Assembly: GCF_900109455.1 (NCBI RefSeq) | Contig: NZ_FOAG01000016.1 | Coordinates: 1-64,000 of the forward strand | Direction of reading: 5' to 3' | DNA from: Roseovarius azorensis | Lineage (GTDB): Bacteria; Pseudomonadota; Alphaproteobacteria; Rhodobacterales; Rhodobacteraceae | Length of the DNA stretch: 64,000 nt | Shown here: positions 21,543-25,024 of the stretch, in pieces | How the letters are laid out: every line of letters starts with the position of its first letter | How positions within the stretch are numbered: the stretch's first letter is position 1 | Translations under genes and position numbers: made by a program | Notes under the pieces: generated by a model | The model's input: only the letters and a program-made list of their open reading frames with translations | Databases searched by the model: none | What the model was told of the DNA's origin: nothing

Positions 21543-23525
21543 ATGCACGCATATCGCAGCCATACCTGCGCGGATCTCGGAAAATCCAATGTCGGCCAGA
21601 CCATCCGCCTCGCGGGCTGGGTCCACCGCATCCGCGATCATGGCGGGGTTCTGTTCATCGACCTGCGCGATCACTATGGCGTGACACAGCTGATCTGCGA
21701 CCCCGACAGCCCGGTTTTCGCCGCCGCCGAGCGGCTGCGCAGCGAATACTGCATCCGAATCGACGGGGCGGTAAAGGCGCGCGATGCGGGCCTTGTGAAC
21801 CCCAAGCTGCCCACCGGCGAGATCGAGGTCTATATCCACGACCTCGAAGTACTCGGCGCGGCGGGGGAACTGCCGCTTCAGGTCTTTGGCGATCAGGAAT
21901 ACCCCGAGGAAACCCGCCTGCGCTATCGCTATCTCGATCTGCGCCGCGAGGCGATGCAGCGCAACATGACGCTGCGATCGGACGTTGTGGCCTCATTGCG
22001 CCGCCGCATGTGGGATCGCGGTTTCCGCGAATTCCAGACGCCGATCATCACCGCCTCCTCCCCCGAGGGCGCGCGCGATTTTCTGGTGCCCTCGCGCCTG
22101 CATCCGGGCAGGTTCTACGCCCTGCCGCAGGCGCCGCAGCAGTTCAAGCAGCTCATCATGGTCTCGGGTTTCGACAAGTATTTCCAGATCGCGCCCTGCT
22201 TTCGCGACGAGGACCCGCGCGCCGACCGCTCGCCCACCGATTTCTATCAATTGGACATGGAAATGTCCTTTGTCACGCAACAGGACGTGTTCGACACCAT
22301 CGCCCCGGTGATCGCGGGCGTGTTCGAGGAATTCGCCGACGGCAAGACGGTCGATGCGCCCGAGGAGTGGTCGCAGATTTCCTATGCCGACTCCGCCCTC
22401 TGGTATGGCACCGACAAGCCCGACCTGCGCAACCCGATCAGGATGCAGGACGTGTCAGAGCATTTCCGGGGCAGCGGCTTTGCCATCTTCGCCAGGCTGC
22501 TCGAACAGGAGGGCACCCAGATCCGCGCCATCCCCGCGCCCACAGGCGGCAGCCGCAAGTTCTGCGACCGCATGAACGCCTTTGCCCAGAAAGAGGGGCT
22601 GCCGGGGATGGGGTATATCTTCTGGCGGGAGGCAAAAAAAGCCTACATTCGCGGCAATTCAAAGCTGGCGGACATGCTTTGGGATCTTTGTGATGGTAAT
22701 GAATCCAGGAAAAAGATCGACCTCCTTATAAAGGAATTCAGGCCAAGTGAAGAAAGCGATGCCCTTCAGGTGCTCGCATACCTCGATTCTGATCGTCCCG
22801 ATCAGGCTCAGCCCGCAATCGTCGAATTGTTTGGGCAGTCTATCCCCGAAGCCGCAGGCCCGCTCGCCAAGAACATCGGCCCCGAACGCACCGAGGCGAT
22901 CCGCCAGCAACTCGGCCTTGGCGTAGGCGATGCCGCCTTCTTCCTCGGCGGCAAACCCCAGACGTTCGAGCGGGTGGCGGGCAAGGCGCGCAACGTGATC
23001 GGCGAGGAACTCGGCCTGACGGACGAAAACCGCTTCGCCTTTGCCTGGATCGTCGATTTCCCGATGTATGAGGCGGACGAGGAAACCGGCAAGGTCGATT
23101 TCTCGCACAACCCCTTCTCAATGCCCCAGGGCGGAATCGACGCCCTCGACGGCGACCCGCTCAGGGTGCTGGGCTATCAGTATGACCTCGCCTGCAACGG
23201 CTATGAACTCGTGTCCGGCGCGATCCGCAACCACAAACCCGAGATCATGTTCAAGGCGTTCGCCCTCGCCGGCTACGGCGAGGACGAGGTGCGCAAGCGC
23301 TTCGGCGGCATGGTCAACGCCTTTCAATACGGCGCGCCCCCGCACGGCGGCTGTGCTGCGGGCATCGACCGCATCGTCATGCTCTTGGCGGGCACCTCGA
23401 ACATCCGCGAGGTCATCATGTTCCCGATGAACCAGCGCGCCGAGGACCTGATGATGAACGCCCCCTCCGATCCAACCAGCGATCAGCTGATGGAACTGGG
23501 GCTAAGGGTCATCCCGCAGGAGTGA
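21543..23525 (+). CDS. aspS: aspartyl-tRNA synthetase with in-frame insertion
   Basis: 660 residues; bacterial enzymes are usually near 590. It charges tRNA-Asp. The N-terminal OB fold binds the anticodon ([22 protein letters not shown]33 sits where a histidine is linked to non-discriminating enzymes such as that of Pseudomonas). The class II core shows FGDQEYPEE, motif 2 F220-R-D-E-D, and motif 3 GIDR ending at R610. The GAD domain lies between. Residues about 365-435 (22635-22847) are extra: the normal frame would run from WREA almost directly into [12 protein letters not shown] 21543 (MHAYRSHTC) gives the family start. All catalytic motifs are intact and the frame is open, so the enzyme is probably functional. 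Confidence 0.95.
22635..22847 (+). other. in-frame low-G+C insertion within aspS
   Basis: 213 bases, exactly 71 codons, absent from AspRS as I know it. By hand count it holds 104 G+C (about 49%), against 41 of 60 (about 68%) in 22861-22920. It uses AAA, ATA, AGG, AGT and AAT codons that neighbours avoid. The encoded peptide is hydrophilic and helical ([40 protein letters not shown]) and matches no family I recognise. It contains a 7-bp stem CTGATCG-tcc-CGATCAG at 22789-22805. No intein splice residues are present. Origin unknown; could be a protein-tolerated mobile repeat or a domain acquired by transfer. Confidence 0.7.
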
Positions 23526-23527
23526 TT

Positions 23528-24241
23528 CTACTCCGGTGTGATATTGCCCGGCAGTATCCCGAAAACCAGAACCGGACAGCCGCCACTGCGCCCTGCGGCT
23601 ATCCGGCTGATGAGCTTATGGGTGCCTGTCGTGCTCGCCCCGAATTTCGCCGCGACCGTGCTGGCGGTCTCATTGCCGTGCTTGTCCAGGCAATATCCAA
23701 GCGACTGAAAGAACTCCTGCGACAACTCGCGTGTGACGATAACCCCGACGTCAATCACACCCGCCTCGAAGAAACTGCGAAACGCATAAAGATCGCGGTC
23801 ATAGGTCTGATCCTTGCTGTTCCATTCGTAGTCAAACGCAACCCGACCGCGCCAGAAATCGACCAGATGGTTATGTATGTAATCCTCGCGCAGGATACGG
23901 TCGATTTCCGGTGCCTTGTCGCCCTTGCCTTCGCGAAGTTTCACCAGCAGATCGGCCTCGATCCTGACCTCCTGATGAAATCCCTCCGCCGCAGCCAGAT
24001 CGGCGAACCGGGTCGTTGCCGACATCCGGTTGCCACCCGGCGAACGGATCTCGGTGCGGCTTATCGTGAACCCGTCAAGAATGCGCAGGATTGACGCCAG
24101 TTCATCCGGCGCGCGCTGTGCGAGCACCGCAGCGGCACTCCTGTAGCTGGTAACGGAATAGCGTCCTGCCAGGCTCCAGCCGATCTGCGATCTCACCAGC
24201 GCCGGCTCGTCAAACACGGCGTCCTCGACGCGACGTGCCAT
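23528..24241 (-). CDS. type II restriction endonuclease, BglII/BstYI-like
   Basis: 237 residues. It resembles nucleases of the BglII/BstYI group, which cut GATC-centred sites such as AGATCT or RGATCY. The signature lies in VAFDYEWNSKDQTYDRD followed by LYAFRSFFEAGVIDVGVIVT. D128, D137 and E139 have the spacing of the BglII catalytic acids (D-x8-E-x-Q), an inference by eye. It follows the MT-A70 methylase gene after 1 bp, so the two form a restriction-modification operon. Its stop lies 2 bp from the aspS stop, convergent. The exact recognition sequence is unproven. Confidence 0.8.
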   Translation of the reverse strand: MARRVEDAVFDEPALVRSQIGWSLAGRYSVTSYRSAAAVLAQRAPDELASILRILDGFTISRTEIRSPGGNRMSATTRFADLAAAEGFHQEVRIEADLLVKLREGKGDKAPEIDRILREDYIHNHLVDFWRGRVAFDYEWNSKDQTYDRDLYAFRSFFEAGVIDVGVIVTRELSQEFFQSLGYCLDKHGNETASTVAAKFGASTTGTHKLISRIAAGRSGGCPVLVFGILPGNITPE

Positions 24242-24242
24242 G

Positions 24243-24911
24243 CTATTCAGCCGCTACGCCTGAATTGTAGGAATACGTCTTCCAGCTCGGTTTGTAATCC
24301 GCATCCGCCTGATTGCCCCAGACTGTCCAGCCTTCGCGCACGCCGCGCCCGAACAGTTCCAGATAGGGGCCCCAGGAACATCCCTCGATCAGATCGTATT
24401 GCTCATCCGGTTTGCGCGAGTGTTCGCGCTTGCGGGTCTGCACCATGTTCACCTGACGTCGTCCGGGGGCAAGGGTGCGCGCATTCCTGCCCCGCGTCCC
24501 GAACAGCAGAATCTCGGTCACATTGCGAAAATAGAACCCCACACCGCGCCCGTCACTGCCGCCATCCTTGCGAACCTTGTGCCAGATGATGTTCGACTTG
24601 TAGTCGAACCCCCATGCCATCAGAACCTGCAACCCCTCGGGCAAAAGCGCATTCGGCACCCAGAGGTAACAATGCGCCGCATCCTCCAGATGCTCGGCGA
24701 CCGGCAGCGCGCATATATCCTCCAGCGTCATCGTCGGATAGCGCGACAGCCGCTTGTGTTCCGGGGCAACCTTGCCGGTGCGGTTGGTAAAGCGCCACGG
24801 CGGATCGGCCAGCACACAGCCGAACCGGTCACCCCCGAGAAACCTGCGCAGGTCTTGTGTTGCGGATTGTCCCATATCCAACATATTGAAGAACTCCACC
24901 CGGCTTGTCAT
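24243..24911 (-). CDS. MT-A70 family adenine-N6 DNA methyltransferase
   Basis: 222 residues from ATG 24911 (a TTG at 24920 would add three). The MT-A70 catalytic motif D36-PPW occurs in VLADPPWRF. Family features YPTMTLEDICALPV, HCYLWVPNALLPEGL, KSNIIWHKVRKDGG, EILLFGTRG and the SAM-pocket segment LELFGRG...GWTVWG follow. It is expected to methylate adenine in the site cut by the adjacent nuclease. No clear ribosome site precedes either start. Methylase first and nuclease second is a common protective order. Confidence 0.87.
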   Translation of the reverse strand: MTSRVEFFNMLDMGQSATQDLRRFLGGDRFGCVLADPPWRFTNRTGKVAPEHKRLSRYPTMTLEDICALPVAEHLEDAAHCYLWVPNALLPEGLQVLMAWGFDYKSNIIWHKVRKDGGSDGRGVGFYFRNVTEILLFGTRGRNARTLAPGRRQVNMVQTRKREHSRKPDEQYDLIEGCSWGPYLELFGRGVREGWTVWGNQADADYKPSWKTYSYNSGVAAE

Positions 24912-25024
24912 GGTGAACAATACTGGAACATAGCCCTTTCCATCCGGTTAACACAAGCGCGGTTTCGCATCCCGCTCACACCATTCACTTGGCGACCCCG
25001 CCACGGCAGGATAAACCGTCACAC

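Follow-up and report, generated by a model that had tools for sequence, protein, structure and literature searches.

The aspS gene and its insert

The window, by which we mean the whole analysed stretch of 64,000 nucleotides from Roseovarius azorensis, carries aspS, the gene for a bacterial-type aspartyl-tRNA synthetase (AspRS; Table 1). The protein exceeds the curated NCBIfam cut-off for the bacterial family aspS_bact (570 bits, cut-off 374). The Pfam matches to the OB fold (residues 22-104) and to tRNA-synt_2 (residues 122-631) are both over cut-off, and the match to the GAD domain is under it (18 bits, cut-off 23.4) and consists of two stretches split by an insert. The gene has one match in its own genome at E up to 0.001.

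An earlier note on this DNA had described a 71-codon in-frame insertion within the GAD domain, with a normal AspRS up to WREA and again from EAAGPLAKN. These boundaries could be confirmed and are the same in the loops of relatives; exactly 213 nt lie, in frame and stop-free, between YIFWREA and EAAGPLAKN. The insertion is codon-exact and in frame, as stated there, and comprises 71 codons. The nearest relatives with a short loop have 4 other residues at this place (READGAMEAA), so that the net gain is 67 codons. Judged from these loops, the inserted piece replaces the loop tip and is not a clean insertion. AspRS from E. coli (1c0a/1eqr) and P. aeruginosa (4wj3) is the same enzyme with the same loop, and phmmer alignments break there; at the insert site of the E. 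coli enzyme there is a short loop, NERAKGLEGINS, with about 12 residues.

The insert has a G+C content of 0.488, in agreement with an earlier estimate by hand of about 49%, compared with 0.642 in the remainder of aspS. The intergenic stretch immediately upstream has 0.660, so that the insert is more AT-rich than its non-coding neighbour as well. The region just downstream, thought to have about 68%, has 0.65 over 300 nt. The codons AAA, ATA, AGG and AGT do occur within the insert, and the G+C content at third codon positions (GC3) is 0.51 in the loop and 0.88 in the flanking parts of aspS. With its low G+C and low GC3 relative to the flanks, the piece does look foreign, as had been said, in a surface loop of an essential gene. 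It is the deepest GC3 dip among those mechanical ORFs of the window that have a GC3 of at least 0.75. When 511 such ORFs from the same genome were scanned (two 400-kb stretches and the window, 864 kb or about 22% of the genome; ORFs with a GC3 of 0.75 or more), it ranked first with a dip of -0.33, followed by -0.28. Two of the next three ORFs we take, by eye, to show conserved parts of valyl-tRNA synthetase and of an ABC-F protein.

A type II restriction-modification pair is located directly downstream of aspS. It consists of a BglII-family endonuclease (PF09195, E 2e-55) and an MT-A70 methyltransferase (PF05063; PADLOC MTase_II). Among 218 loci, many of them without that flank, the endonuclease is otherwise found beside aspS only at L021 and L115, so the pair looks accessory and not linked to the insert.

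Table 1. Features of the aspS locus (positions in the window).
Feature	Position	Strand	Basis or remark
aspS, bacterial-type aspartyl-tRNA synthetase	21543-23525	+	660 aa including insert; TIGR00459 and Pfam
GAD beta strand before the insert, residues 357-362, YIFW; conserved codons form the left flank	22611-22628	+	AlphaFold2
Whole variable loop REA...EAA, 77 residues (10-12 in most relatives)	22626-22856	+	
Insert cassette, 71 codons, residues 365-435, G+C 0.488	22635-22847	+	
Insert helix 1, residues 373-383	22659-22691	+	AlphaFold2
Insert helix 2, residues 389-396	22707-22730	+	AlphaFold2
Insert helix 3, residues 401-415, first arm of the hairpin of the long class	22743-22787	+	AlphaFold2
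Insert helix 4, residues 419-430, second arm; corresponds to A.FL..AYFG of other members, degenerate here	22797-22832	+	AlphaFold2
GAD beta strand after the insert, residues 436-438, EAA; right flank EAAGPLAKN	22848-22856	+	AlphaFold2
Type II restriction-modification pair	23528-24920	-	

The insert is predicted to fold as a helical domain

The earlier note had proposed a fold prediction, and AlphaFold2 predicts a four-helix domain. For the AspRS of the window (48 rows) the mean pLDDT is 82 and the four helices have block means of 73-89; they sit on a beta-hairpin of the GAD domain that is formed by the strands on either side of the insert. Folded alone, the insert again gives four helices with a mean pLDDT of 77. 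A Foldseek search with it returned no meaningful match (best E 1.8 in PDB, 1.0 in the viral models of BFVD).

Similarly long inserts at the same position in other species share a C-terminal helical hairpin, I..xL..GD...A.FL..AYFG, just before EAAG. The first nine long loops could be aligned only poorly apart from this motif, and the pattern holds with 35 rows. The median identity of these 35 inserts is 0.26, compared with 0.81 for the cores of the same proteins (595 pairs), and it is 0.25 over 861 pairs when seven other inserts are added.

One position, several kinds of loop

The same site of aspS holds many different inserts across Rhodobacteraceae, which becomes visible only with relatives at hand. 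Within the genus, aspS was matched in 82 of 84 genomes and the loop could be read in 80 (G039, G051, G053 and G063, with no or a partial match, were left out). All 80 loops have the same boundaries. They comprise 64 short loops of 10-12 residues, 7 long ones (the window and L010-L015), 5 of a class with 35 residues (HTH35) and 4 others that are unrelated (L024, L025, L045 and L047), so that the insert is absent from most close relatives, an outcome that the earlier note had named as support. The pattern used to read the loops accepts only stop-free ones, and there are no stops inside the aspS matches listed.

To cover the family, 394 genomes were drawn at about one per genus from collections that hold one genome per species; the long inserts of this sample therefore lie in different genera by design. 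The long-class model gave E of at most 1e-4 in 34 of them including the window's own, and all 30 loci that were fetched (one being the window) are aspS with an insert. Weaker matches confined to model positions 58-81 are meaningless because the model contains the constant flank EAAGPLAKN. A profile without most of this flank matched 22 of 388 relatives at E up to 0.001; 19 belong to the family and are places already read or aspS by eye, and 3 are from other families of the class and are not aspS.

Class HTH35, REKTADAVAQELGITVKEAQAKLKSGEVEGGMEAA, has two subtypes and occupies the same slot (L037, L046, L081, L089-L102, L169-L178 and others). By eye alone it resembles a small helix-turn-helix; in Pfam nothing is above cut-off (two families at E 0.062-0.089), and TIGR02675 (E 0.021) is also below. 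Among the 394 family genomes, its profile has strong matches only in frames of aspS size: E is below 1e-13 in 44 genomes, in each case in an open frame of 617-816 codons, and the next match has E 7e-4. We read ten of these, and each proved to be aspS.

Loci from the named collections were picked by similarity to the protein of the window and are thus a biased sample; 60 of 80 loops could be read (37 short, 17 HTH35, 4 other, 2 long). Overall, the loop pattern missed 20 of the 160 loci L009-L168, none from the same genus. At least five of these are Rhodobacteraceae or Paracoccaceae by title (L105, L109, L111, L123, L135), and the rest are mostly from other orders. With a looser pattern, L105 has a long loop while L109, L115, L123 and L135 have short ones; these lie outside the class counts. 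Twelve aspS loci were found on IMG/VR contigs, and the two loops that were read there are both short. The possibility raised earlier that the insert is simply conserved in most AspRS of the family does not hold among the relatives read.

Some individual loci deserve mention. L125, a MAG labelled Afipia sp. and thus from another order, has an AspRS that seems to carry an extra helical stretch in the same GAD loop, so the slot may not be confined to Rhodobacteraceae. Genome G044 contains two different aspS pieces, one a gene with a short loop (L030, contig C355) and the other a cut gene with a long insert (L274, contig C23), which represent either a mixed MAG or a real polymorphism within the population. 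In L047 (G079), next to an unrelated loop of 51 residues, a normally conserved stretch of 15 residues reads GPLSKNIGFMRTEAI. Compared with L069, the DNA identity of L047 falls for about 120 bases downstream of the loop; this is perhaps the edge of a transferred tract.

Long inserts do not follow the tree of their host gene

On a tree of 139 AspRS cores, computed without the loop, at least 27 changes between short loop and insert are required, and starred branches make 12 of these unavoidable. For the long label, 14 changes are needed, compared with a mean of 15.4 after shuffling (61 of 500 as low), so that it is hardly clustered. HTH35 also needs 14 changes, with the unrelated 35-residue loop of L045 counted as HTH35, and is clustered (shuffled mean 21.6). 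A core DNA tree of 78 genus rows requires at least 11 changes between short loop and insert, and grouping the seven long rows of the genus as one clade is rejected, as it costs 762 log-likelihood units (p-AU 0.0014, with a quick tree).

The clearest individual case is L012, with a loop of 79 residues. Its sisters L026 and L031 carry the short consensus loop RDQGDGMEAA, share 95-98% DNA identity with L012 in 60-nt windows beside the slot and are its nearest relatives in both neighbouring genes among 12 loci compared. A simple deletion of the insert is hardly expected to bring back the consensus loop, so a recombination event that replaced the loop is the more straightforward explanation.

For 33 long rows, with L182 and L204 left out for their odd flanks, insert distances do not correlate with core distances (Mantel r -0.08; 1637 of 2000 permutations as high; with L182 kept, r is -0.05 over 34 rows). 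The control of upstream against downstream flank gives r 0.52 (0 of 2000). Saturation of the inserts at about 26% identity would by itself lower this correlation and contributes to the result. Four pairs of inserts from different genera are nevertheless recognisable, being 65% (L013/L186, the latter from G411, an incomplete assembly at 76%), 50% (L187/L196), 48% (L201/L203) and 46% (L185/L191) identical, and in these pairs the partner ranks only 7 to 31 of 33 by core. A further apparent case, L011/L182 with 75%, was left out of the count as the flank of L182 is odd. L014 and L015 are near to each other in both insert and core. HTH35 partly tracks the core (Mantel r 0.40, 17 of 2000), and each of its two subtypes is found in this genus and in other genera.

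Both flanks of the slot are strongly conserved at the protein level, and they are the most alike of all DNA windows (mean identity 0.86 left and 0.81 right, compared with 0.54-0.76 elsewhere; windows were compared ungapped, so that far ones are underestimated). No clear edges of recombination tracts were seen in the aspS flanks. A conserved DNA target beside the slot was not found either, synonymous codons there being no more conserved than elsewhere. Constant flanks, a variable centre and a relatedness of the inserts that is decoupled from the flanks are the features of a diversifying cassette, and all three are found here, the third with the caveat of saturation.

Inserts appear to be kept as proteins

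For long inserts, dN/dS could be computed in three of six pairs and amounts to 0.06, 0.19 and 0.25, which is rough as dS is 2.0-2.7; the remaining three have dS out of range. In HTH35, dN/dS is 0-0.06 in five of seven pairs and 0.14 in a close pair, with one pair not computable, and the protein is nearly invariant at high dS. The computable pairs thus point to purifying selection, and the inserts look like maintained proteins, even if the numbers are rough. No positive selection is indicated by these pairs.

Synonymous divergence is higher in the loop than in the core in all six long pairs. This fits alleles that would be older than their present surroundings; different codon usage and the partial cores of L182 and L186 may also raise it. 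GC3 is 0.48 +- 0.07 in the 35 long inserts while their flanks average 0.82 (Wilcoxon p 6e-11), and it is 0.49 compared with 0.81 in eight unrelated inserts. HTH35 is near its host (0.67 compared with 0.73). Insert and host GC3 are weakly correlated (Spearman 0.38, p 0.02), which is compatible with slow amelioration.

Searches outside aspS

The expectation that peptide and DNA would resemble nothing known was borne out in the libraries searched. The insert occurs only once in its own genome, where the next DNA match has E 0.27. There is no match by tblastn in plasmid and phage collections and no Pfam family at E up to 10. PHROGs (best E 0.13), NCBIfam and PDB sequences gave no meaningful match, nor did a 9-row loop profile against PDB, where the best hit (E 0.017) is to a molecule named dAID23.4L. 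The insert of L015 matches X-Tfes_XVIPCD with E 0.0039, which is below the cut-off of that family and was treated as chance. There is no inverted repeat inside the window's insert, as the single pair found lies in the left flank, and its RNA fold is not unusual (z -0.80). Other reading frames were checked for a hidden endonuclease: the two other forward frames are stop-free in 0 of 35 inserts and the three reverse frames in 7, 3 and 2.

The earlier note had also considered that the same peptide may be embedded in unrelated genes, and no convincing copy of the peptide family was found outside aspS. Weak profile matches elsewhere have E of 4e-4 to 0.03. Eight such places were fetched. Six are GntR/FCD regulators as confirmed by Pfam (L250-L253, L255, L257); at L249 the ORF of the match is absent among those shown, and at L254 no ORF met the filter. 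Of three class-level matches, L278 lies in DUF4175 (Pfam, a part of 620 residues), L277 looks alike, and L279 is a contig with a gene that by eye looks like dnaA. There is a weak resemblance between the two final helices of the long inserts and both the C-terminal helical hairpin of the GntR/FCD regulators and the DUF4175 stretch. As a helical hairpin is the only common feature, these places were rejected as true copies of the insert; the resemblance is either generic or a hint at origin.

AspRS and its possible partners

No genome of the genus has asnS over cut-off (0 of 84) while 79 of 84 have gatB, so AspRS probably serves tRNA-Asn in addition to tRNA-Asp. The five exceptions are G037 and G075, which have no match and are 76% and 84% complete, and G044, G053 and G059, where gatB is partial or split; their loops, where read, are of mixed classes. 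Synthetases of this kind hand on their product within a transamidosome (passages of PMC7373986). The presence of gatB and the absence of asnS are the same with or without insert, so the known partner GatCAB does not explain the patchiness of the inserts.

Comparison with known systems

The earlier note had seen a likeness in principle to Rickettsia palindromic elements, and the aspS insert does share with them that it is short, in frame, tolerated within a gene and expressed as a peptide in the host protein. These elements are repeats present in many unrelated genes (passages of PMC10969869). In contrast, the aspS inserts are found in one gene at one site and belong to a domain class that is conserved and predicted to fold; with neither a palindrome, an unusual RNA fold nor a second genomic copy, the likeness does not hold up. 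Insertions of the ShiLan type in a phage methylase are stop-free, in frame and at one site, with intein-like evolutionary patterns (passages of PMC11855218). The aspS insert resembles them in being an in-frame, stop-free insertion at one site, but it has no hidden HNH ORF, a low dN/dS in the host frame and many unlike sequences at its site. An intein was rejected as there is no splicing (Hint) domain in only 71 codons. The usual intein splice residues are absent at the insert ends.

As with the BEAN and HABAS insertional domains of RNA polymerase, a domain (here a predicted one) is inserted into an essential housekeeping protein. The distributions of those domains follow the Tree of Life (passages of PMC11515920), whereas the aspS inserts do not follow the core gene tree.

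Hypervariable cassette loci, such as the specificity domains of restriction enzymes and surface antigens, have a variable centre between constant flanks, undergo homologous recombination and share alleles across species. The aspS slot appears to be like them in all these features. Those loci code for surface or defence proteins, however, while AspRS is a cytoplasmic and essential enzyme of translation. Both domain insertion and diversifying cassette exchange are thus known as kinds. In the passages of the open-licence PMC literature at hand, we found no description of AspRS as a place for them, nor of its slot or inserts.

Proposed mechanism and alternatives

We consider it probable, on balance, that the insert is a functional domain cassette which is exchanged horizontally and kept under diversifying selection in the apparent sole synthetase that charges for both Asp and Asn. 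The tip of one GAD beta-hairpin would be an exchangeable slot, filled in most cases by the loop of 10-12 residues and otherwise by the conserved 35-residue loop, a divergent helical domain of 60-100 residues or an unrelated insert. The sequence comparisons give good support to the view that alleles pass from species to species, each cassette as one unit, and that homologous recombination in the conserved flanks brings this about. These flanks appear alike enough for cassettes of 100-300 bases to be exchanged between species, and the cassettes may plausibly be carried by the gene transfer agents of Alphaproteobacteria (PMC7296036). The insert should leave aminoacylation as such unchanged, since the core of the enzyme around it is conserved. 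While the swapping of cassettes between bacteria is well supported, it is less certain that selection keeps up the diversity, most likely through a varying binder at the GAD tip. We infer that this selecting agent is either an antagonist, such as a protein of a phage or competitor, or a variable partner of AspRS; the present searches identified neither partner nor antagonist nor donor. As the apparent sole enzyme for both charging reactions, AspRS would be a good target for an antagonist and a good partner for GatCAB.

The hairpin shared by the long inserts of many lineages and the low dN/dS are the reasons to prefer such a binder over a slot without selection, in which the hairpin tip tolerates any folded peptide and AT-richer foreign DNA is captured and later lost by recombination. 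A merely permissive loop would agree with the site, a surface loop of the GAD domain, with the foreign composition and with eight inserts (L024, L025, L045, L047, L106, L112, L116, L121) that are not clearly similar either among themselves or to the long class. A neutral slot should, however, fill with unrelated peptides and decay, but dN/dS is well under 1 in the scorable pairs, HTH35 is nearly invariant at high dS, and no comparable insert stands out among the ORFs scanned in about 22% of the genome; we therefore regard it as rather unlikely. We are equally doubtful about a domain that docks to a cellular partner, e.g. GatCAB in the Asn transamidosome, a tRNA or a regulator, that diverges with this partner and is present only where the partner is. 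The predicted fold, the low dN/dS of computable pairs and the role of AspRS as sole candidate found for charging tRNA-Asn in the genus would suit it, but gatB is present and asnS absent irrespective of the insert, and no co-varying gene was found among the two compared.

A selfish in-frame element, be it a Rickettsia palindromic element, a homing insert of the ShiLan type or a decayed intein that uses aspS as its site, would account for the single exact position in an essential and conserved gene, for the open frame, patchiness and foreign composition, and for horizontal spread. It is very unlikely, as the insert has no inverted repeat, no unusual RNA fold, no Pfam family and no strong copies elsewhere, of 35 inserts at most 7 are open in any one alternative frame and none in the two other forward frames, and a single slot holds many unlike sequences. 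An assembly or sequencing artefact, which the earlier note had kept in mind, might be suspected from the deviating composition and because several relatives are MAGs. It can practically be discounted: the frames are open, the boundaries recur in dozens of separate assemblies, including a contig of 4.19 Mb (G068:C1, L014), and the own genome is 99.97% complete and 0.08% contaminated.

A more specific form of the preferred reading, selection on exchanged cassettes, is a tentative one, and we hold it to be possible rather than probable. AspRS might be a battlefield protein, the GAD tip being where an antagonist from a phage or competitor docks, and Rhodobacteraceae might share a horizontally circulating pool of old and unalike tip domains. 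By analogy, this would amount to an allotype system like MHC or restriction specificity, located inside an essential enzyme of translation.

Implications

One would expect an essential housekeeping enzyme to show little variation and to be passed on by vertical descent. In this tRNA synthetase, a single spot varies from one sister species to the next, has domain alleles that are common to several genera and has a base composition unlike that of its hosts. The enzyme that carries the slot is apparently the sole supplier of the precursors of both Asp- and Asn-tRNA. The literature passages at hand (open-licence PMC) name no function for the GAD domain; if selection drives the diversity, AspRS has a so far unrecognised binder at this domain. 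In addition, the slot is a place at which AspRS naturally accepts the insertion of whole domains. Since even close relatives have an entirely different domain at this one fixed spot, or none at all, our results suggest that bacteria of this family keep exchanging an extra domain of AspRS among themselves.
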